From positions 4,278,001 through 4,342,000 of the forward strand of contig NZ_JACCBB010000001.1 of the NCBI RefSeq assembly GCF_013409345.1: 64,000 bases of DNA. Direction: 5' to 3'. Within the stretch, counting starts at the first letter, position 1. The number at the start of each line of letters is the position of its first letter. Positions 7,965 through 59,450 of this stretch are shown one piece after another. Under the pieces are notes generated by a model, which saw only the letters and a list, made by a program, of their open reading frames with translations, made no database searches and was not told the DNA's origin. Made by a program: the position numbers and the translations under genes. This DNA is from Kineococcus aurantiacus (GTDB lineage Bacteria; Actinomycetota; Actinomycetes; Actinomycetales; Kineococcaceae).

Positions 7965-9929
7965 ATGGGGCTGCTCGACACGATCCAGGGGCCGCAGGAC
8001 CTCGCAGCTCTCACCGCCGAGCAGCTGCCCGAGCTGGCCGCGGAGATCCGCGACTTCCTCGTGGCCGCCGTCAGCCGCACCGGGGGGCACCTGGGCCCCA
8101 ACCTCGGTGTGGTGGAGCTGACCATCGGTCTGCACCGCGTCTTCGACTCCCCGCGCGACCGGATCGTCTTCGACACCGGCCACCAGAGCTACGTCCACAA
8201 GCTGCTCACCGGGCGGCAGGACTTCAGCCGGCTGCGCGAGGCCGGCGGCCTGTCGGGGTACCCCTCGCGCGCCGAGAGCGAGCACGACGTGGTGGAGAAC
8301 TCCCACGCCTCGACGTCGCTGTCGTGGGCCGACGGGCTGGCCAAGGCCTTCGAGCTGCGCGGTGAGGTCGACCGGCGCGTCGTGGCGGTCATCGGCGACG
8401 GCGCCCTGACCGGCGGCATGGCCTGGGAGGCGCTGAACAACATCGCCGCGGCCAACCGGCCCGTCATCGTCGTCGTCAACGACAACGAGCGCTCCTACGC
8501 CCCGACCATCGGCGGGATGGCCTCGCACCTGGCGACGCTGCGCACCACCCGCGAGTACGAGAAGCTCCTGGACTGGGGCAAGCAGTCCCTCAAGCGCGGG
8601 GGCGTCCCGGGCCGGCTGGCCTACGAGACGCTGCACGGCATGAAGCGCGGCATCAAGGACATCGTCGCGCCCCAGGGGCTGTTCGAGGACCTGGGCCTGA
8701 AGTACGTCGGCCCCGTCGACGGCCACGACACCGAGGCCGTCGAGCACGCCCTGCGCCGGGCGCGGTCCTTCGGCGGGCCCGTCATCGTCCACGTCATCAC
8801 CCAGAAGGGCCGCGGCTACCAGCCGGCCCTGGCCGACGACGCCGACCACTTCCACGCCGTCGGCGTCATCGACCCCGAGACCGGCGAGGCCCAGGCCACC
8901 TCCGGCTCGTCGTGGACCAGCGTCTTCTCCGACGAGATGGTCCAGATCGCCGCCACCCGCCGCGACGTGGTCGGCATCACCGCCGCCATGCGCATCCCGG
9001 TGGGCCTGGAGGCCTTCGCCCAGGCCCACCCCGAGCGCGTCTTCGACGTCGGCATCGCCGAGCAGCACGCCGTCACCTCCGCCGCCGGCATGGCCGCCGG
9101 CGGCCTGCACCCCGTCGTGGCCGTCTACGCCACCTTCCTCAACCGCGCCTTCGACCAGCTGCTGCTGGACGTCGCGCTGCACGCCGCCGGGGTCACCTTC
9201 GTCCTGGACCGCGCGGGGGTCACCGGCCCCGACGGGCCCAGCCACCACGGCATGTGGGACCTGGCGATGTGCCGCCTCGTGCCGGGCCTGCGCCTGGCCG
9301 CCCCCCGCGACGCGCAGACCCTGCGCGAGGAGCTCGGCGAGGCCGTCGCCGTCGCCGACGCCCCCACGGTGGTGCGCTACAGCAAGGGCAAGGTCCCCGC
9401 GGCGATCCCCGCCCTGGCCCGCACCGGCCACGCCGACGTCCTGGAGGGCGAGCGCTGGGCCACCGGCGACGACGTCCTGCTGGTCGCGGTCGGCTCCCTG
9501 GTCCCGCGGGCCCTGGAGGTCGCCCGGCGCCTGCGCGCCCACGGCGTCGGCGTCACCGTCGTCGACCCCCGCTGGGTCGTGCCCGTCGACGAGGCCCTGG
9601 TGCAGCTGGCCCGCACCCACCGGCACGTGGCGGTCCTGGAGGACGGCTGCGAGGTCGGCGGGCTGGGCTGGGCGCTGGCCGCGGCCCTGCGCGAGCGCCA
9701 CGACGCCACCCCCGTGCACGGCTTCGCCCTGCCCCAGCGGTTCCTCGACGTCGGCGACCGCGAGAGCCTGCTCGACGCCGCCGGCCTGGCCCCCCAGGAC
9801 GTCGCCCGCGCCCTCGTCGAGGCCGTCGCCCAGGAGGCGGGCCAGGGACCGGGGCAGGCGGGCGAGCCCGGGCCCGCCGGGGAACCGGACGGCGTGGCGC
9901 CGCGCGCGGAGGAGTTCCCCTCGCGGTAG
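7965..9929 (+). CDS. dxs: 1-deoxy-D-xylulose-5-phosphate synthase
   Basis: A 654-residue thiamine-diphosphate enzyme that condenses pyruvate and glyceraldehyde 3-phosphate, the first step of the MEP isoprenoid pathway. Clear signatures are [15 protein letters not shown] (substrate-side His), the ThDP/Mg motif [16 protein letters not shown], the catalytic-domain segment [15 protein letters not shown] with the active-site Glu, and [15 protein letters not shown]. Length agrees with bacterial DXS (about 620-650). The ATG at 7965 is preceded by CAGGAGG; a TACACT sequence near 7913 is a plausible -10 element. The C-terminal tail is an extra Gly/Pro-rich stretch of about 30 residues of no obvious function. 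It converges with the rhodanese gene. Confidence 0.97.
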
Positions 9930-50742: not shown

Positions 50743-51150
50743 CTAGTTCCCCTTGGGCGGCAGCGGGGCGTCCAGCGGGTGGTCCTCGCCGTAGAGCATG
50801 GCCTGGACGGCGCGGTGGGCCTTGGGGTTGACCACGATGGGGGCGAAGAGGTTCATGGTCGCCTTCTCCATGCCCTCGGCGAGGTTGACGATGGCCAGGA
50901 CGGCCCCGTCCTCCTCCTTCTCGATCTGGAGGGCCTTGGCCGTGTCGGGGTCGATCACGGCGTCGTAGTCGGGGTAGAACGGCTGCGGGTCGGCCAGGAC
51001 CAGGCGCAGGTCCGGGTCGGACGTCGACCGCATGGTGAGGAAGAGTCCGTCCTCGTCGAGGGGCTCGAGCTCGAAGCGGGTGTGCTCGTCGAAGCCCATG
51101 AGCGGAGTGACGAACTCGATCTTCGGGGTGGTTTCGGAGGCGATGCTCAC
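50743..51150 (-). CDS. fliW: Flagellar assembly factor FliW, copy 1
   Basis: A 135-residue FliW: FVTPLMGFDEHTRFELEPLDEDGLFLTMRS, FYPDYDAVIDPDTAKAL, AIVNLAEGMEKATMNLFAPIVVNPKAHRAVQAML are all family signatures. FliW binds newly made flagellin and the translation regulator CsrA, coupling flagellin supply to its synthesis. A second, quite different FliW lies 232 bp upstream, separated by a strong terminator. No csrA gene is in the window. GTG 51150 is preceded by AAGGGA. Confidence 0.9.
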   Translation of the reverse strand: MSIASETTPKIEFVTPLMGFDEHTRFELEPLDEDGLFLTMRSTSDPDLRLVLADPQPFYPDYDAVIDPDTAKALQIEKEEDGAVLAIVNLAEGMEKATMNLFAPIVVNPKAHRAVQAMLYGEDHPLDAPLPPKGN

Positions 51151-51381: not shown

Positions 51382-51783
51382 TCAGGCCACCAGCAGCGGC
51401 GCCCGCAGCGGCAGCTCGGTGCCCGCCAGGACGACCTGGGCCGCCCGCAGCGTGCGCTGGTTCACCACGATCGGGGCCAGCAGGTTCACCGTCGCCGTGG
51501 CCGGGTCGTCCCCGATGTTCACGACGTTGAGCACCACGGCCTCGGAGGCGTCCTGCAGGTCCAGGGCGTGGACGACCTCGTCGTCGACCCGCGGGGCGTA
51601 GTCGGGGAAGAAGCGGCCCGGGGCCACCACCACCAGCCGCACCCCGCTGCCGTCGGCCGCCCGCAGCGACGACAGCGTCCCCTCCTCGTCCAGCGGGAGG
51701 AGGTGGAACGTCGTCTGCTCGGCGAAGCCCATGAGGGGGGCGACGAACTCGATCGCGCGGGTGGTCACGGACAGGTCGGTCAT
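51382..51783 (-). CDS. fliW: Flagellar assembly factor FliW, copy 2
   Basis: About 133 residues, divergent from copy 1 but with the same core: FVAPLMGFAEQTTFHLLPLDEEGT, FFPDYAPRVDDEVVHAL, LNVVNIGDDPATATVNLLAPIVVNQRTLRAAQVVL. ATG 51783 has GGAG eight bases upstream; the longer GTG frame has no RBS. It lies 46 bp behind flgL and belongs to the flgN-flgK-flgL operon. The two copies differ in many surface residues and may serve different flagellins. Confidence 0.85.
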   Translation of the reverse strand: MTDLSVTTRAIEFVAPLMGFAEQTTFHLLPLDEEGTLSSLRAADGSGVRLVVVAPGRFFPDYAPRVDDEVVHALDLQDASEAVVLNVVNIGDDPATATVNLLAPIVVNQRTLRAAQVVLAGTELPLRAPLLVA

Positions 51784-51829
51784 GGGGGTCACTCCAGGAG
51801 CTCCGGGTCGGGGCGGCTGACGGCGGCCG

Positions 51830-52717
51830 TCAGCGCAGGAAGTCCAGCAGCGTCGGCTGGATCGTCTTGGCCGTCGCCTGCAGGGCCGCCTGGTAGGCGA
51901 CGTTCTGCATGTTGAACTCGACGTAGGTCTTGGCCATGTCGACGCCCTCGACGTCGTCCAGCTGCGTCCGCAGGTACTGCAGCTGGTTGGCGTTGACCTC
52001 CTCGGCGTGGTCGAGCTGGTTGTCGCGCGCGCCGATCGTCGCCAGCGCGGTGGCGTTCTTGCTGATCCGCGAGTCCAGCCCCACCAGGCTGGCGCCGATC
52101 GCCGTGCCGTTGTTCGCCGTGACGGCCGCGGCCAGGTCGGTCAGCTCGTCGAACAGCGAGTTCGGGGCGGTGCCGAAGACCGCGCCGCCGTTGACGTTGA
52201 CGGTCATGTCCACGCCGGGGGAGATCGTCCGGGTCACCGCGGCGCCGTTGTCGGCGGACGCGTACGTCACCGGGTCGTAGGCCTGGGTGGTGTCCCTCGT
52301 CCCGGCGAAGACGGCGCGCCCCTGGTACTGGGCGTTGGCCGAGCCCAGGATGGACGCCTTCGCCTCGTTGATCTCCGCGACGATCGCCGCGCGGCCCTTG
52401 TCGTCCAGGGTCGCGTTGCCGGCGCGCACCGCGAGGTCGCGCACGTAGCTGAGCCGGTCGGCGACGCTCGTGAGCGCCTCCTCCTGCGTCGTGTTCCACG
52501 CCCGCGCGTCGGCGATGTTGCGGGTGTTGGCGTCGTTGCCGGCGATCTGGTCGTTCAGGCGCAGCGCGGCCGCGGCCCGCACCGAGTCGTCGGAGCCCTT
52601 GGACAGGGACTTGCCGCTGGACAGCTGCTCCTGCAGCTTCGCGGTGCGCGACTGCGCGTTCTGCAGGTTGGTCAGGGAGTTGAGCGCGATGCTGCGCTGG
52701 GTCACTCGGCCGATCAT
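51830..52717 (-). CDS. flgL: Flagellar hook-associated protein 3
   Basis: A 295-residue HAP3: flagellin-like N-terminus (RVTQRSIALNSLTNLQNAQSRTAKLQEQLSSGKSLSKGSDD in parts) and C-terminus (DMAKTYVEFNMQNVAYQAALQATAKTIQPTLLDFLR in parts), as in FlgL proteins, with a variable middle. HAP3 joins hook-filament junction with FlgK. Transcribed behind flgK with 32 bp gap. An ATG start with GAGGAG upstream. Confidence 0.95.
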   Translation of the reverse strand: MIGRVTQRSIALNSLTNLQNAQSRTAKLQEQLSSGKSLSKGSDDSVRAAAALRLNDQIAGNDANTRNIADARAWNTTQEEALTSVADRLSYVRDLAVRAGNATLDDKGRAAIVAEINEAKASILGSANAQYQGRAVFAGTRDTTQAYDPVTYASADNGAAVTRTISPGVDMTVNVNGGAVFGTAPNSLFDELTDLAAAVTANNGTAIGASLVGLDSRISKNATALATIGARDNQLDHAEEVNANQLQYLRTQLDDVEGVDMAKTYVEFNMQNVAYQAALQATAKTIQPTLLDFLR

Positions 52718-52749: not shown

Positions 52750-54144
52750 TCAGCGGACCATGTTCAGCAGCGCGTCGAGCGCCTGGTCCATGGTGGTGAG
52801 GACCTTGGCCGCCGCGGAGTACGCGTGCTGGTAGGCGACGAGGTTGGTCATCTCCTCGTCCAGGTTGACGCCCGAGACGCCGTCGCGGACGGCGCTGGAC
52901 TTCAGCGACACCTGCGAGGCCAGCTCGGCGCGGTTGTTCGCCGACTGGGTCGAGGCCGCCAGCTTGGTCACGTTCGCCTGCCAGGTCGCCTTGGTGCCCG
53001 CGCTGCCGCCGAAGGTCGCCAGGACGTCCTTGGCGACGCTGCGGTCGGACAGGCCGGCCGGGCTGTCGACCAGCGCGGTGGGGGAGGCCACGAGGCTCGC
53101 CTCCACCTGCAGGCTGTGGGCGGTGATCGTGGTGTCCCCGCCGGCGGGGGTGAAGAACTTCCGCGTCCCCGTGGAGTCGTACTTGGCGTTGACGTCGGCG
53201 GCGAACTTCTGGGTGAACGTGTTCAGCCCGTCCCACTGCTTGGCCAGCGTGGTGTTGGCCCCGTCGATCGTGGCCTTCAGCGAGCCCGAGACCGGCGCCG
53301 TGGTCTGGTTGCCGACGGTGACGACGAGCTGGTCGCCCCTGCGCAGCTGCGGGTTGCCCGGCGTCGTGCCGTCGCTCGCCCGGTAGCCGACCGTCATGTC
53401 GTGGGCGAAGTCCCCGTTCACGACGAAGGTGTTGCCCACCAGGACGTCGACGGTGCCGTTCTCGCGGGCGACGGTGCGGGCGCCGGTCAGGTCGGCCAGC
53501 TGGTTGAGGTACTGGTCGCGCTGGTCCAGCAGCTCGTTCGCCGAGGCGCCGGAGGCCAGCGTCTCGCGGATCGAGGTGTTCAGCCGGGCGATGTTGGCGC
53601 TCGCGGTGTTGGCCTGCGTGACCAGGGTCTCCGCCTGCAGGCCCAGCTGGGCGTACTGGCCCTGGAGCTGCTGGTCCATCCCGCTGATCGTCGCGGCGAC
53701 GCTCTGGCTGGTCGTCACGACCAGGGACTTCGCGCCCTCCAGACCCGTGGTGCCGGCGTTGACCAGCGAGTTCCACGCCGAGGTGAGGTCGGCGAGGTCC
53801 TTGCTCAGGCCCGTGGTGCCGGTGTCGCCGATCGCGGCCTCGGCCGCGGACAGGACGGTCGCCGCGGTGGCCTGCTCCTGGGCGTTGGCCGAGTCCTGGC
53901 GGGCGGTCGCGGTCGCCAGCGCGTCGTTGACGCGGGTCAGGCCGTTGACCACGACGCCGTCGCCCGGGACGTGCTTCTGGGTGAACTGGCCCGTCTGGTT
54001 CAGGACGCTCGCGGACTGCTCGACCCGCTGGCGGGAGTAGCCCGGGGTGTTCACGTTGGCGATGTTCTGCCCCGTCGTCTCCATGCCGCGCTGGGCGGCG
54101 CCGAGGGCGCGGGAAGCGTTGTTGATGCCGGAGAAGGTGCTCAT
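52750..54144 (-). CDS. flgK: Flagellar hook-associated protein 1
   Basis: A 464-residue HAP1. The N-terminal FSGINNASRALGAAQRGMETTGQNIANVNTPGYSRQRVE contains the flagellar rod/hook motif (NIANxxTPGYSRQ), and the C-terminus has EEMTNLVAYQHAYSAAAKVLTTMDQALDALLNM, the axial-protein ending. The middle has GxSANELLDQRDQYLNQLADLTGARTV, conserved in FlgK. Preceded by AAAGGA at ATG 54144 and 13 bp after flgN. It joins with FlgL at the hook-filament junction. Confidence 0.97.
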   Translation of the reverse strand: MSTFSGINNASRALGAAQRGMETTGQNIANVNTPGYSRQRVEQSASVLNQTGQFTQKHVPGDGVVVNGLTRVNDALATATARQDSANAQEQATAATVLSAAEAAIGDTGTTGLSKDLADLTSAWNSLVNAGTTGLEGAKSLVVTTSQSVAATISGMDQQLQGQYAQLGLQAETLVTQANTASANIARLNTSIRETLASGASANELLDQRDQYLNQLADLTGARTVARENGTVDVLVGNTFVVNGDFAHDMTVGYRASDGTTPGNPQLRRGDQLVVTVGNQTTAPVSGSLKATIDGANTTLAKQWDGLNTFTQKFAADVNAKYDSTGTRKFFTPAGGDTTITAHSLQVEASLVASPTALVDSPAGLSDRSVAKDVLATFGGSAGTKATWQANVTKLAASTQSANNRAELASQVSLKSSAVRDGVSGVNLDEEMTNLVAYQHAYSAAAKVLTTMDQALDALLNMVR

Positions 54145-54157
54145 CGTCCAGGTCCTT

Positions 54158-54649
54158 TCAGAGGGCTTCGTCGACGAAGTGGGCGCGGGACCCGCCGGTC
54201 GACGCAGTCGTGTTCTTGCCCCGGGCGGTGTAGGTGTCCAGGGGCTGGTCCAGCCCCAGGAGGGTCTCGCGCAGGGCGCGGGACCCGGCCTTGAGCAGGT
54301 CCCGGTTGGCGTCGGCCAGGTCCTGGATCTCCGAGGTCAGGGTCAGGAAGGCGTCGCGGTGCGACGTGAACAGCTGCCCCCACGGTTCGGGGGCGGCCTC
54401 GGCGATCGCGTTCAGGCTCGGCCCGGGCTCCAGCCCGAGGTCGGCGGCGATGGCGTCGACCTCGACGGCCCGCAGGAGCTCCGTGGAGCGGATCTGCTCC
54501 ATGACGAACTCGACCTCCCGGGTCGCGTGCGCCAACCAGCGCGTGCGGCCGCTGGCCAGCACGAGCTGCTCCTCCTCGAGCTTGAACAGGAGCAGCTCCA
54601 GCAGCTCCCGCTCCTTCCAGAGGATGCCGGAGACCTCGGCGAGTCCCAT
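54158..54649 (-). CDS. flgN: FlgN-family secretion chaperone
   Basis: A 163-residue helical protein. EVSGILWKERELLELLLFKLEEEQLVLASGRTRWLAHATREVE is typical of FlgN chaperones (heptad-rich N-terminal helix), which carry FlgK and FlgL to the export gate. It lies directly upstream of flgK, the usual position. The C-terminal DTYTARGKNTTAS is disordered. ATG 54649 is preceded by AAGGA. Confidence 0.85.
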   Translation of the reverse strand: MGLAEVSGILWKERELLELLLFKLEEEQLVLASGRTRWLAHATREVEFVMEQIRSTELLRAVEVDAIAADLGLEPGPSLNAIAEAAPEPWGQLFTSHRDAFLTLTSEIQDLADANRDLLKAGSRALRETLLGLDQPLDTYTARGKNTTASTGGSRAHFVDEAL

Positions 54650-54740
54650 GCGTGTCCTTCCACGATGCCGTCGTGCCGTCGTCAGTGGTGCTCGAGCCCT
54701 CCATCGACGCCGACCGGCGTGAGCTGAGGCGCCGGGCTGG

Positions 54741-55088
54741 TCAGGAGCCGGTCCTGCGGATGAACTGCGCGTTCTTGGTCGGCTTGCGCAGGTAGTACGG
54801 CCGGCCGTCCTCGCGGGCGTTGCGCATCTCCTGGTTCAGCACGCGCGCCTCCTCCTCCATGGCGCGGTTGACGGCGTTCTGGTCCACGCTCATCTCCCGC
54901 TCGCGGGCGAGGTGGTCGTTGCGGCCGATCTCGTGCTCGACGTCGAGGTAGTTCTTGGCGCACAGCGCGTAGAGGGCGCTGATGCGCTCACCGTGCTTGA
55001 CGGCGTAGTCGTCCAGGAAGGACGGGGTGAGCCGCCCCTTCTTGTACGCGAACTCCAGGTCGCGGACGACCTCCCACAGCGGCTTCAC
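54741..55088 (-). CDS. Hypothetical protein heading the flgN-flgK-flgL operon
   Basis: A 115-residue, highly charged helical protein (VKPLWEVVRDLEFAYKKGRL, EHEIGRNDHLAREREMSVDQNAVNRAMEEEARVLNQEM in parts). I recognise no family. It starts at a GTG with GGAGGG upstream, and is the first gene after the divergent sigma28-type promoter opposite the sigma factor gene, 91 bp upstream of flgN. Its length and coiled-coil character would fit a small flagellar assembly or regulatory protein. It is too long and charged to be FlgM, but an anti-sigma28 role cannot be excluded, since no flgM is seen nearby. Confidence 0.75.
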   Translation of the reverse strand: MKPLWEVVRDLEFAYKKGRLTPSFLDDYAVKHGERISALYALCAKNYLDVEHEIGRNDHLAREREMSVDQNAVNRAMEEEARVLNQEMRNAREDGRPYYLRKPTKNAQFIRRTGS

Positions 55089-55162
55089 GTCTTCCCTCCA
55101 GAAACACGAACCTCAAGCGCCACACCCGCCACGTGGTTTCGCGGCGTGGGCGCACCCGCCCA

Positions 55163-55190
55163 CCATCGGCCGGTCCGGGCCCGCGACTGA
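55163..55190 (-). promoter_or_regulatory. Candidate sigma28 promoter for the flgN-flgK-flgL operon
   Basis: On the minus strand TCAG (55187-55190), 16 bases, GCCGATGG (55163-55170), 75 bp upstream of the first gene start at 55088. The -10 octamer is identical to that of the PAS-MCP operon; spacing is one base longer than the usual 15. Confidence 0.5.
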
Positions 55191-55307
55191 AGGGACCCGC
55201 GCCGTCCGGGGGAGGGTCCACCCGGGTGGCGGTGCCGACCACGACCGGTGACGGTGCGCGACCTGTTCGGCGCAGCGGCCGGCGCGCAGCCGTCACCCGT
55301 TCGGCGC

Positions 55308-55336
55308 TCAAGTCGGCGGGGGCGGCGTGCCGAGAA
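55308..55336 (+). promoter_or_regulatory. Possible sigma28-like autoregulatory promoter
   Basis: TCAA (55308-55311), then 17 bases, then GCCGAGAA (55329-55336). The -35 box with its following GTCGG is like the third flagellin promoter, but spacing is two bases too long and the -10 has one change. If used, transcription would begin about at the GTG 55344, giving a leaderless message, or translation would start at GTG 55383. Confidence 0.35.
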
Positions 55337-55343
55337 GGGGTGT

Positions 55344-56249
55344 GTGACCGCAGACACCGCCTCCGCCACCCGGGAGCTCCCCGTGATCGAGCTCTCCGCC
55401 GCTGAGCGCCACGCGCTCGTGGAGAAGCACCTGCCCCTCGTCGGCTACATCACCAGCGAGTTCATCGGTCGTCTGCCGTCGCACGTCAGCCGCGACGACC
55501 TCACCTCGGCCGGGCTGATGGCGCTGTTCCAGGCGTCGCGGGCCTACGACCCCACCACCGGCGTCCCCTTCAACCGCTACGCCAACACCCGCATCCGCGG
55601 CGCCATCCTCGACGACCTGCGGGGAGCGGACTGGGCCTCGCGCGGCGTCCGCAGCCGGCAGCGCAAGCTGAACCGGACCGAGGACGAGCTGACCGCGGAG
55701 CTCGGCCGCACCCCCACCGCCGCCGAGCTGGCCGCCACCCTCGGCGTCTCGGAGAAGGAGCTGGCCGAGACCCGCGACGAGGCGCAGCGCTCGATGGTGC
55801 TGTCGATGCAGGGCTTCACGGCCGAGGGCGCGTCCCTGGACGACCACCTGCCCACCCAGATCCCCAGCCCCGAGCAGGAGCTGCTGCACCGCGAGCGGCT
55901 GGGCTACCTGCGCTCGGCCGTCGCCGTGCTGCCCGAGCGCCTGCGGCACGTCGTCGAGGGCTACTTCGTCCAGGAGCGGCCCATGGCCGAGCTCGCCGAG
56001 GAGCTCGGGGTCTCCGAGTCGCGCATCTCCCAGATGCGCGCCGAGGCGCTGACGCTGCTGCGCGACGGCATGAACACCCACCTGTCCCCGGAGATGGTGG
56101 CCGCCCGCGGCGGCGCGTCCTCCGCGGCGGTCAAGCGCAAGGAGTCCTACTTCGCCGCCGTCGGCGCCCACTCCGACTTCAAGGCGCGGCTGGCGCTGTC
56201 CGCCTTCGCCTCGGCCGGCGTCGTCGCGCCGCTGCACCGCTCCGCCTGA
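55344..56249 (+). CDS. fliA: RNA polymerase sigma factor of the FliA/WhiG type (sigma28)
   Basis: A 301-residue sigma factor. Region 2 is LPLVGYITSEFIGRLPSHVSRDDLTSAGLMALFQASRAYDP and FNRYANTRIRGAILDDLRGADW (in parts), region 3 has RKLNRTEDELTAELGRTPTAAELAATLGVSEKEL and region 4 RPMAELAEELGVSESRISQMRAEALTLL. This is the FliA/WhiG/SigD arrangement. After region 4 there is an additional 60-residue tail (from about residue 240) not found in FliA. GTG 55344 or GTG 55383 (GGAG upstream) may be the start. Location between flgK-side operon and flagellins, with sigma28-like promoters on both sides, fits motility sigma. Named fliA by context; WhiG is also possible by sequence. Confidence 0.9.
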   Translation: MTADTASATRELPVIELSAAERHALVEKHLPLVGYITSEFIGRLPSHVSRDDLTSAGLMALFQASRAYDPTTGVPFNRYANTRIRGAILDDLRGADWASRGVRSRQRKLNRTEDELTAELGRTPTAAELAATLGVSEKELAETRDEAQRSMVLSMQGFTAEGASLDDHLPTQIPSPEQELLHRERLGYLRSAVAVLPERLRHVVEGYFVQERPMAELAEELGVSESRISQMRAEALTLLRDGMNTHLSPEMVAARGGASSAAVKRKESYFAAVGAHSDFKARLALSAFASAGVVAPLHRSA

Positions 56250-56579: not shown

Positions 56580-56888
56580 ATGGGTCTTCGCATCAACACC
56601 AACACCGCGGCGCTGAACAGCTACCGCAACCTGCAGGCGACCGACAAGGCGCTGAACTCCTCCCTGGAGAAGCTGTCCTCGGGTCTGCGCATCAACCGCG
56701 CCGCCGACGACGCGGCCGGCCTGGTGGTCTCCGAGGGTCTGCGTGCGCAGATCGGTGGCCTGAGCACCGCGGCGCGCAACGCGCAGGACGGTGTCAACTA
56801 CGTGCAGATCGCCGACGGCGCGCTGTCGACCGTGGGTGACATGCTGACCCGCATGCGCGACCTGGCCGTGCAGGCCTCCAACGTCACC
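56580..56888. repeat. Flagellin 5' conserved block (three copies)
   Basis: The first 309 coding bases of flagellin 1 are identical to 58623-58931 of flagellin 3 and nearly identical to 57565-57873 of flagellin 2 (about five differences seen). Homology with flagellin 3 extends about 40 bases upstream into the leader. Confidence 0.85.
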
Positions 56889-57413
56889 GCCGACACCGAC
56901 GCCCGCACCGCCGCGAACAAGGAGTTCGAGGCGCTGCGCACCCAGATCGACAACATCGGCTCGCAGACGAAGTTCGGCGGCACGGGGATCTTCAACGGTG
57001 CGGCCGGGGCGACCTTCCAGGTCGGCGCGAACCAGGGCGAGACCATCGTCATCAGCTCGATCACCCTGAGCAACACCGCGGGCGGCATCGCCGGCGGCAC
57101 CCTGAGCTCCAGCAGCCTGACCACCATGGCGCTGGCCTCTGCCGCGATCGGGGAGATCAACGACGCGATCACGAAGGTCGCCTCCTCCCGCGCGGACCTG
57201 GGTGCGGTGCAGAACCGGTTCCAGCACGTCATCAACAACCTGAACGTGTCGATCGAGAACCTGTCGGCGTCGCAGTCGGCGATCCGCGACACCGACATGG
57301 CGCAGGAGATGACGAAGTTCACCCGCAGCCAGATCCTGTCCCAGGCCGGGACGAGCATGCTGGCCCAGGCCAACTCCGCCTCGCAGAACGTCCTCTCGCT
57401 CCTGCGCGGCTGA
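56580..57413 (+). CDS. fliC: Flagellin 1
   Basis: A 277-residue short flagellin with D0/D1 domains only: N-terminus GLRINTNTAALNSYRNLQ and RINRAADDAAGLVVSEGLRAQIGG, C-terminus TDMAQEMTKFTRSQILSQAGTSMLAQANSASQNVLSLLRG. The middle (residues about 110-190) is the variable part. The first 309 bases are identical to flagellin 3 and the last 260 identical to flagellin 2 by eye. The leader has CACATCACGGAGGAAGTCACC before ATG, with an ideal SD and a CACGGA that could be a CsrA site. Assembled into the filament, assisted by FliS and FliW. Confidence 0.97.
   Translation: MGLRINTNTAALNSYRNLQATDKALNSSLEKLSSGLRINRAADDAAGLVVSEGLRAQIGGLSTAARNAQDGVNYVQIADGALSTVGDMLTRMRDLAVQASNVTADTDARTAANKEFEALRTQIDNIGSQTKFGGTGIFNGAAGATFQVGANQGETIVISSITLSNTAGGIAGGTLSSSSLTTMALASAAIGEINDAITKVASSRADLGAVQNRFQHVINNLNVSIENLSASQSAIRDTDMAQEMTKFTRSQILSQAGTSMLAQANSASQNVLSLLRG
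57154..57413. repeat. Flagellin 3' conserved block (three copies)
   Basis: The last 260 coding bases of flagellin 1 are identical to 58145-58404 of flagellin 2 and share most bases with 59191-59450 of flagellin 3, including silent positions. Confidence 0.85.
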
Positions 57414-57423
57414 TCGAGCCCTC

Positions 57424-57457
57424 ACCGCGGGACCGTCCTGACCGGCGGTCCCGCGGT
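57424..57457. terminator. Terminator after flagellin 1
   Basis: Perfect 12-bp inverted repeat (57424-57435 with 57446-57457) and a 10-base loop, ten bases after the stop. Confidence 0.8.
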
Positions 57458-57564
57458 CCCTCACGACGCTCGCCGGGGACCGGTGGAGCGCACACCACGG
57501 CACGGACGTCGCCAGCCACGGACGGCTCACGACGAGAGCACCCCACATCACGGAGGAAGTCACC

Positions 57565-58404
57565 ATGGGTCTTCGCATCAACACCAACACCGCGGCGCTG
57601 AACAGCTACCGCAACTTGCAGGCGACCGACAAGGCGCTGAACTCCTCCCTGGAGAAGCTGTCCTCGGGTCTGCGCATCAACCGCGCCGCCGACGACGCGG
57701 CCGGCCTGGTGGTCTCCGAGGGTCTGCGTGCGCAGATCGGTGGTCTGTCGACCGCGGCGCGCAACGCGCAGGACGGTGTCAACTACGTGCAGATCGCCGA
57801 CGGCGCGCTGTCGACCGTGGGTGACATGCTGACCCGCATGCGCGACCTGGCCGTGCAGGCCTCCAACGTCACCACCGACGACACCGCCCGCACCGCGGTG
57901 CAGAAGGAGTTCACCGCCCTGCAGGACCAGATCACCGCGATCGGTTCGCAGACGAAGTTCGGTGGTACCCCTCTCTTCAACAACGGTGCGGCCGGGGCGA
58001 CCTTCCAGGTCGGCGCGAACCAGGGCGAGACCATCGTCGTCAGCGCGATCACCCTCAACGGCGGCAGCAACGACGGCGTCGCGGGCGGCAGCATCGCCGG
58101 CCTCGACCTCAGCAGCATGGCCGGTGCGTCGCTGGCCATCGGCAAGATCAACGACGCGATCACGAAGGTCGCCTCCTCCCGCGCGGACCTGGGTGCGGTG
58201 CAGAACCGGTTCCAGCACGTCATCAACAACCTGAACGTGTCGATCGAGAACCTGTCGGCGTCGCAGTCGGCGATCCGCGACACCGACATGGCGCAGGAGA
58301 TGACGAAGTTCACCCGCAGCCAGATCCTGTCCCAGGCCGGGACGAGCATGCTGGCCCAGGCCAACTCCGCCTCGCAGAACGTCCTCTCGCTCCTGCGCGG
58401 CTGA
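57565..58404 (+). CDS. fliC: Flagellin 2
   Basis: A 279-residue flagellin with the same ends as flagellin 1 and a different middle (GGTPLFNNGAAG, ITLNGGSNDGVAGGSIAGLDL). It has the same SD context (CACATCACGGAGGAAGTCACC), but the region between the preceding terminator and the gene shows no sigma28-type promoter; only short pieces of the conserved leader are left. It may be expressed by read-through or from another promoter. Intact frame, no sign of pseudogene. Confidence 0.97.
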   Translation: MGLRINTNTAALNSYRNLQATDKALNSSLEKLSSGLRINRAADDAAGLVVSEGLRAQIGGLSTAARNAQDGVNYVQIADGALSTVGDMLTRMRDLAVQASNVTTDDTARTAVQKEFTALQDQITAIGSQTKFGGTPLFNNGAAGATFQVGANQGETIVVSAITLNGGSNDGVAGGSIAGLDLSSMAGASLAIGKINDAITKVASSRADLGAVQNRFQHVINNLNVSIENLSASQSAIRDTDMAQEMTKFTRSQILSQAGTSMLAQANSASQNVLSLLRG

Positions 58405-58444
58405 TCGAGCTCTCACCGCGCCGGTGACCCCGGCTCGTCGACTT

Positions 58445-58475
58445 GAAGGGGACCGTCCATCGGGCGGTCCCCTTC
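58445..58475. terminator. Terminator after flagellin 2
   Basis: An 11-bp perfect stem (58445-58455 with 58465-58475) and 9-base loop, followed by a short pyrimidine run (CTCGTTCC). Confidence 0.8.
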
Positions 58476-58526
58476 CTCGTTCCCGCACGTCCACCACACG
58501 TTCGGAACCGGCAACGCACTCGGAGC

Positions 58527-58553
58527 TCAAGTCGGGCGCGAGACTGCCGATGA
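58527..58553 (+). promoter_or_regulatory. Candidate sigma28 promoter of flagellin 3
   Basis: TCAA (58527-58530), exactly 15 bases, GCCGATGA (58546-58553). It is the best match in the window and lies 69 bp before the ATG. Confidence 0.8.
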
Positions 58554-58622
58554 AGAGAACGTCGGCCACGGATGGCCACGCACGGGTACACCGTCAGACC
58601 CCACATCACGGAGGAAGTCACC

Positions 58623-59450
58623 ATGGGTCTTCGCATCAACACCAACACCGCGGCGCTGAACAGCTACCGCAACCTGCAGGCGACCGACAAGGCGCTGAAC
58701 TCCTCCCTGGAGAAGCTGTCCTCGGGTCTGCGCATCAACCGCGCCGCCGACGACGCGGCCGGCCTGGTGGTCTCCGAGGGTCTGCGTGCGCAGATCGGTG
58801 GCCTGAGCACCGCGGCGCGCAACGCGCAGGACGGTGTCAACTACGTGCAGATCGCCGACGGCGCGCTGTCGACCGTGGGTGACATGCTGACCCGCATGCG
58901 CGACCTGGCCGTGCAGGCCTCCAACGTCACCACCGACGACACCGCCCGCACCGCCGCGAACAAGGAGTTCAAGGCGCTGGCCCAGCAGATCAACGACATC
59001 GGGTCGCAGACGAAGTTCGGCACGACGGCCCTGTTCAACGGCACCGCGGGTTCCACCTTCCAGGTGGGAGCCAACGGTGGTGAGACCCTCGTCGTCGCCG
59101 CCATCGCGCTGACTTCCGCCGATGTCGCCGGGACGAACGTCAACGGTGGCGACCTGACGAGCATGGCCAACGCGTCCACCGCGATCGGCACCATCAACAC
59201 CGCGATCACGAACATCGCCGCGAAGCGTGCGGACCTGGGTGCGGCGCAGAACCGGTTCCAGCACATCATCAACAACCTGAACGTGTCGATCGAGAACCTG
59301 TCGGCGTCGCAGTCGGCGATCCGCGACACCGACATGGCGCAGGAGATGACGAAGTTCACCCGCAGCCAGATCCTGTCCCAGGCCGGGACGAGCATGCTGG
59401 CCCAGGCCAACTCCGCCTCGCAGAACGTCCTCTCGCTCCTGCGCGGCTGA
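58623..59450 (+). CDS. fliC: Flagellin 3
   Basis: A 275-residue flagellin. ATG 58623 is equivalent to the starts of the other two; the open frame extends upstream but only through leader sequence. The N-terminal third is identical in DNA to flagellin 1; the middle (TTALFNGTAGSTFQVGANGG, LTSADVAGTNVNGGDL) is its own; the C-terminus has two small differences (AAKRADLGAAQNRFQHI). With flagellins 1 and 2 it forms a three-gene filament locus. Confidence 0.97.
   Translation: MGLRINTNTAALNSYRNLQATDKALNSSLEKLSSGLRINRAADDAAGLVVSEGLRAQIGGLSTAARNAQDGVNYVQIADGALSTVGDMLTRMRDLAVQASNVTTDDTARTAANKEFKALAQQINDIGSQTKFGTTALFNGTAGSTFQVGANGGETLVVAAIALTSADVAGTNVNGGDLTSMANASTAIGTINTAITNIAAKRADLGAAQNRFQHIINNLNVSIENLSASQSAIRDTDMAQEMTKFTRSQILSQAGTSMLAQANSASQNVLSLLRG

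Follow-up and report, generated by a model that had tools for sequence, protein, structure and literature searches.

A small Kineococcus gene in the spacer between fliA and flgN is a candidate sigma28-dependent accessory of the motile stage

The gene described here, which we call X, is a real and conserved gene located at positions 54741..55088 on the minus strand of the window, the 64,000-nucleotide stretch of Kineococcus aurantiacus DNA that was analyzed. It codes for a protein of 115 amino acids belonging to a family specific to Kineococcus-type genomes. With moderate confidence, we propose that X serves the motile stage of Kineococcus as a cytosolic accessory protein that is specific to this lineage and made late (class III) under sigma28 control.

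The open reading frame holds up as the initial annotation had it. Translation starts at a GTG that is preceded by a likely ribosome-binding site, GGAGGG (55094..55099, minus strand, read from the sequence). The GC content by codon position is 0.66/0.37/0.99, a strong coding signature of the kind that real genes in this genome carry, and for this reason we regard X as real. There are 29 invariant columns in an alignment of 16 family members. Copies that occupy the same place between fliA and flgN (termed X1, as distinct from X2 for copies elsewhere that share neighbors) are under purifying selection, with dN/dS values of 0.17-0.36 (NG86, six pairs) that are rough because the genome is GC-rich.

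The neighborhood is clearly flagellar. Divergent to X is a gene (55344..56249, plus strand) that had been called a sigma factor, and family matches now place its product in the FliA/WhiG family; the start at 55344 is assigned from the conserved GTG, and the mechanical ORF opens at 55248. On the minus strand, the next gene after X is flgN (54158..54649; PF05130, 3e-20), followed by flgK (52750..54144, Pfam match) and a flgL-like gene with flagellin N and C domains (51830..52717, Pfam match and position). Two neighboring fliW genes, both matching PF02623, are found downstream of flgL at 50743-51150 and 51382-51792 of the window.

Actinobacteria do not carry X as a general part of their flagellar gene set. 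Homologues were found in 11 of 59 genomes, its own included, and a 16-row profile found the family in 11 of 396 genomes of the order, all of Kineococcus type. The Kineococcus-type group comprises 12 genomes, which are 11 of the genus and that of K. xinjiangensis (G011), filed as a sister genus; X is present in 10 of the 11 and in K. xinjiangensis. This retention of at least one copy in 11 of 12 genomes is counted in favor of an accessory protein. A profile search of 396 genomes of the phylum returned its own genome and one partial match (E 0.003) and nothing else, and no relatives were found in the plasmids, phages or viral contigs searched. A scan of named genomes with X alone gave no match, and an alignment scan gave five named Kineococcus loci, those of K. 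vitellinus, K. indalonis, K. rubinsiae, Kineococcus sp. TRM81007 and K. xinjiangensis. No description of the gene family was found in the literature searched.

FlgN occurs in 87 of 297 genomes of the order, of which 12 are of Kineococcus type, and an X match is absent from the 75 FlgN-bearing genomes outside this group, assuming that the genome sets overlap. We fetched 20 flgN loci from outside the genus, taken from among the best-scoring of 76 non-genus FlgN genomes. At 18 of these loci, fliA is the divergent direct neighbor and no separate gene is called in between; the other two (L061 and L071) carry no fliA in the fetched stretch. The co-occurrence of X with fliA in motile actinobacteria, proposed at the outset as a check, is not seen at these 18 loci, and the suggestion of a general actinobacterial anti-sigma factor is unsupported by a family that is confined to the Kineococcus-type genomes among the 396 of the order. 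Within the genus, a draft assembly of 500 contigs (G002) has fliA, flgN and flgK and no copy of X that was detected, and X therefore appears not to be required for flagellar genes as such.

The protein belongs to no flagellar family that we could recognize, as had been claimed. X alone matches no Pfam family at E ≤ 1, and searches of Pfam, NCBIfam and PHROGs with X by itself and with all 16 family members gave weak matches only and no credible family. The strongest of these were to PHROG 8165, which one member matched at E 0.014, and to Pfam Ta0938, which two members matched at E 0.0052 or worse; both were rejected, since neither recurred in the rest of the family. A profile search of solved structures gave one match, at E 1.5. 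A match to a known non-flagellar family would have refuted the initial reading, and none was seen, but there is a paralogue at a non-flagellar locus.

One line of evidence for the favored reading comes from the promoter. Upstream of X is a sigma28-like site, TTCA-N17-GCCGATGG (55163..55191, minus strand), which scores 19.0 on a matrix whose training set was 20 upstream regions of flgN and fliC, with none from X. None of 183 non-flagellar background upstream regions scores 16 or more, and the sigma28-like promoter proposed for X is therefore supported. The background regions are what remains of 259 after removal of 76 flagellar or X genes, with starts taken from a simple ORF caller.

Ahead of all 16 copies of X, at -77 to -103, stands a sequence close to YTCA-N17-GCCGATGR. 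Its spacing is 17 throughout, and several copies differ from the consensus at one or two bases. The seven copies located away from flagellar genes are no exception. It is this same-spacing site, shared by copies at flagellar and non-flagellar loci alike, that leads us to read the family as sigma28-dependent. With the matrix, 14 of the 16 copies score about 10.8 or more, a threshold that is the lowest of these 14 scores and was chosen after the scores were seen; it is reached by 4 of the 183 background regions and by 18 of 1600 mononucleotide shuffles. The two weak sites are those of L005, which scores 6.0, and L007, which is equally weak and whose top-scoring site (8.4) lies elsewhere than at the conserved position. 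A conserved sigma28-type promoter, as would mark a member of the sigma28 (FliA) regulon, is therefore found in 16 of 16 copies, two of them weak. On the other strand, a weak sigma28-like site, CTCA-N18-GCCGAGAA (55307..55336, plus strand, read from the sequence), precedes fliA, and through it autoregulation of fliA is possible; the fliA sites of four relatives have matrix scores of 8.6-8.9.

The initial annotation also described X as first in an flgN-flgK-flgL operon and cotranscribed with it, and this is doubtful. The flgN gene has a sigma28-like promoter of its own, CTCA-N16-GTCGATGG (54701..54728, minus strand), which scores 19.0 as a member of the training set. Such a site is found at -70 to -110 in 12 of 12 flgN loci, all of them training members whose scores are not independent, and three of these loci, those of G002, G009 and K. 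xinjiangensis, have no X in the slot between fliA and flgN. The gap between X and flgN is 91 bp here; four of the nine X1 genomes have gaps of 91-232 bp, and the other five have gaps of 578-700 bp. Given the separate flgN site and the long gaps in five of nine genomes, X is probably transcribed as a unit of its own, whether or not transcription runs on into flgN. In one long gap (L018, from G001), a Uma2-type gene lies at 8827-9366 on the opposite strand. The remaining four long gaps resemble it by eye.

These findings bear on the suggestion that X acts in flagellar export, as a chaperone or co-chaperone, to which we give very little credence. The protein is small and predicted to be helical, like the chaperones FlgN, FliS and FliT, and is coded beside flgN, flgK and flgL among the late flagellar genes. 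However, recognized chaperones (FlgN and FliS) are already there, X has no profile match to FlgN, FliS or FliT and no dedicated substrate adjoining it, and the gene has its own sigma28-like promoter and is often set apart from flgN. Its paralogue likewise has no recognized export substrate alongside.

The family occupies two kinds of locus. X1 is found in nine genomes and a copy elsewhere in seven (G000, G001, G005, G007, G008, G009 and K. xinjiangensis), with five genomes having both. In G000, G001, G005, G007 and G008, X2 shares as neighbors a P450 gene, a gene on the opposite strand that codes for 152 amino acids (L030, 9118-9576) and a LysR gene, and no flagellar gene was found at this locus. 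The 152-residue protein has no Pfam match. Of the 12 Kineococcus-type genomes, 11 carry its gene, which adjoins X2 tail to tail in these five and head to head in G009, and is on a different contig from the X copy in K. xinjiangensis. There is no X at the tail-to-tail place beside this gene in G003, G004 and G010. In G006 (L135), X2 has decayed, and about 29 C-terminal residues are left beside the 152-residue gene. G002 lacks both X and the 152-residue gene.

Among the five genomes with two copies, X1 copies are 79-85% identical and X2 copies 68-79%, and selection on X2 is weaker (dN/dS 0.40-0.50 in three pairs, versus 0.17-0.36 for X1). Three genomes have no X between fliA and flgN, namely G002, G009 and K. 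xinjiangensis, and the latter two carry only a distant copy. A tree of FliA, FlgN and FlgK unites the nine X1 genomes in one clade, with a support of 87, and places K. xinjiangensis beside G002 and G009 (support 43). Both a single gain of X1 in the nine-genome clade and an older duplication with later loss fit this arrangement, and the tree of the X family itself is unrooted. The copy in the slot might be either a duplicate that settled there or one of an ancient pair that a few species went on to lose.

The position of X would also suit a direct regulator of the adjacent sigma factor, and one such role would be that of FlgM. The absence of flgM noted at the outset is confirmed: PF04316 has no match in this genome at E ≤ 1 and none over the cut-off in 297 genomes of the order, where one partial match falls below it. 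FlgM is a mostly unfolded protein, and the gene order in Bacillus subtilis is flgM-flgN-flgK-flgL-...-fliW. X fills the flgM place in this order, here beside fliA, and resembles FlgM in its small size and in having, at the sequence level, its own sigma28-like promoter (score 19.0). X might therefore be a functional equivalent of FlgM, an unrelated anti-sigma28 factor invented in this lineage that binds FliA to give negative feedback and is possibly exported via the finished hook.

We do not favor this proposal and consider it rather unlikely. Searches of the order did not detect X in its other flagellated members, which also lack flgM over the cut-off. In two of the 11 genus genomes and in K. 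xinjiangensis, fliA and flgN are kept but the slot holds no X; one of these relatives is devoid of any copy and two have the distant copy only. X has no sequence match to FlgM: the 16 members together match five families, and PF04316 is none of them. A paralogue at a locus without a flagellar gene, the restriction to Kineococcus-type genomes and a predicted folded N-terminal domain followed by a helix and a tail are also unlike FlgM, and binding to FliA is putative.

According to the published analysis in PMC2587704, flgM is missing from K. radiotolerans and from three other flagellated Actinobacteria whose genomes were available at the time, which leaves two options: an unrelated protein does the job of FlgM, or a new mode of control acts on FliA. 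The absence of FlgM also agrees with what PMC10746217 reports for the later actinobacterial classes. Table 7 of PMC2587704 lists flgK as 1622 and fliA as 1625 with nothing between, and X and flgN are probably the two genes missing from that table. X and its paralogue are concrete candidates for the question of the missing flgM as it is put there. If X were an anti-sigma28 factor, FliA in Kineococcus would be subject to a negative feedback that is apparently missing from related flagellated Actinobacteria.

Another small helical actinobacterial protein, RsiG, is worth comparing because the partner of X would be a sigma factor of the FliA/WhiG family. RsiG is a c-di-GMP-dependent anti-sigma factor of WhiG, and the motif given for it in PMC8325347, E(X)3S(X)2R(X)3[Q/H](X)3D, occurs in none of the 16 X-family proteins.

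The charged coiled coil expected by the initial annotation was not borne out by structure prediction. Two AlphaFold2 models built from 16 sequences have mean pLDDT values of 75 and 79 and low pTM values of 0.45 and 0.47. They agree in predicting three helices within residues 4-45 (block pLDDT 88-94); after a linker come one more helix, at residues 70-93 or 72-95, and a basic C-terminal tail of low confidence (pI 11.6 for residues 96-115). Foldseek gave no match at E ≤ 0.001 for either model.

With VIA, one of the models retrieved several helix-turn-helix (HTH) domains with Z values up to 4.2 (LsrR 4.2, AsnC 3.9, NtrC4 3.6), and one of the 16 members weakly matches the PHROGs entry 'HTH DNA binding protein', at E 0.085. 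Together with the basic tail and the placement of the gene between divergent promoters, these matches raise the prospect that X is a small regulator that binds DNA, with an HTH-like N-terminal domain acting on the fliA-flgN spacer. This seems decidedly improbable to us, since HTH Z values of this size are usual for common arrangements, the third predicted helix is mostly hydrophobic and in this differs from a recognition helix, and no HTH family of Pfam matches at E ≤ 1. Furthermore, the second model, that of X2, ranks N-terminal domains of the NuoE type first, with higher Z values of 5.3-6.2.

The likeness of the latter to the three-helix N-terminal domain of NuoE, HydC and NfnC is confined to residues 1-62 of the X2 model, and the thioredoxin-like iron-sulfur domain of these proteins is absent from X. 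PF01257 has no match in any of the 12 Kineococcus-type genomes. Homology to NuoE was rejected, because a profile comparison with 28 NuoE proteins gave a probability of 0.15 and did not outperform reversed or shuffled controls.

Returning to the favored reading of a late accessory protein, FliA would make X only once the basal machinery has been built, and X would then remain in the cytosol. There it might bind a partner through the predicted three-helix N-terminal domain, with the helix and basic tail providing a possible second contact. With low pTM values and no confident fold match for the models, this partner-binding role is an inference. X would thereby adjust the late motility program rather than serve as a builder of the flagellum.

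The program in question might be broad. A strict sigma28-like pattern has 18 occurrences in this genome, versus 1 for the reversed control, and the genes downstream include those for flagellin, FlbD, an MCP, a T2SSE-type (type II/IV secretion) ATPase, GGDEF, EAL and PAS proteins, and X2. When eight of the downstream genes, picked after being seen, were scanned for families, six had such families, one had a periplasmic-binding-like domain and one had no family. Ten of the 18 sites fall within called ORFs, and so not every strict site need be a promoter. Nevertheless, the sites ahead of genes for GGDEF and EAL proteins and a secretion-type ATPase, in addition to flagellar genes, hint at a wide FliA regulon.

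The spacer between fliA and X also holds a recurring element, the box GCGCCGAACGGGTGA (55293..55307, minus strand). Allowing at most one mismatch, GCKCCGAHCGGGTGA occurs at 44 places in this genome, versus 6 for the reversed control. With at most two mismatches, it lies no more than 330 bp upstream of 15 of the 16 X copies, versus 9 of 180 background genes. In six of the seven copies away from flagellar genes, the box starts 30-52 bp above the sigma28-like site, and it is within 300 bp of only 2 of 17 chromosomal strict sigma28-like sites. The box may be a site for an activator.

Three tandem, closely similar flagellin genes are found at 56580-59450 of the window. The middle one has a poorer sigma28-like site, with a score of 15.4 and a spacing of 15, and its neighbors have sites that score 19.3 and 21.9, all three being members of the training set.
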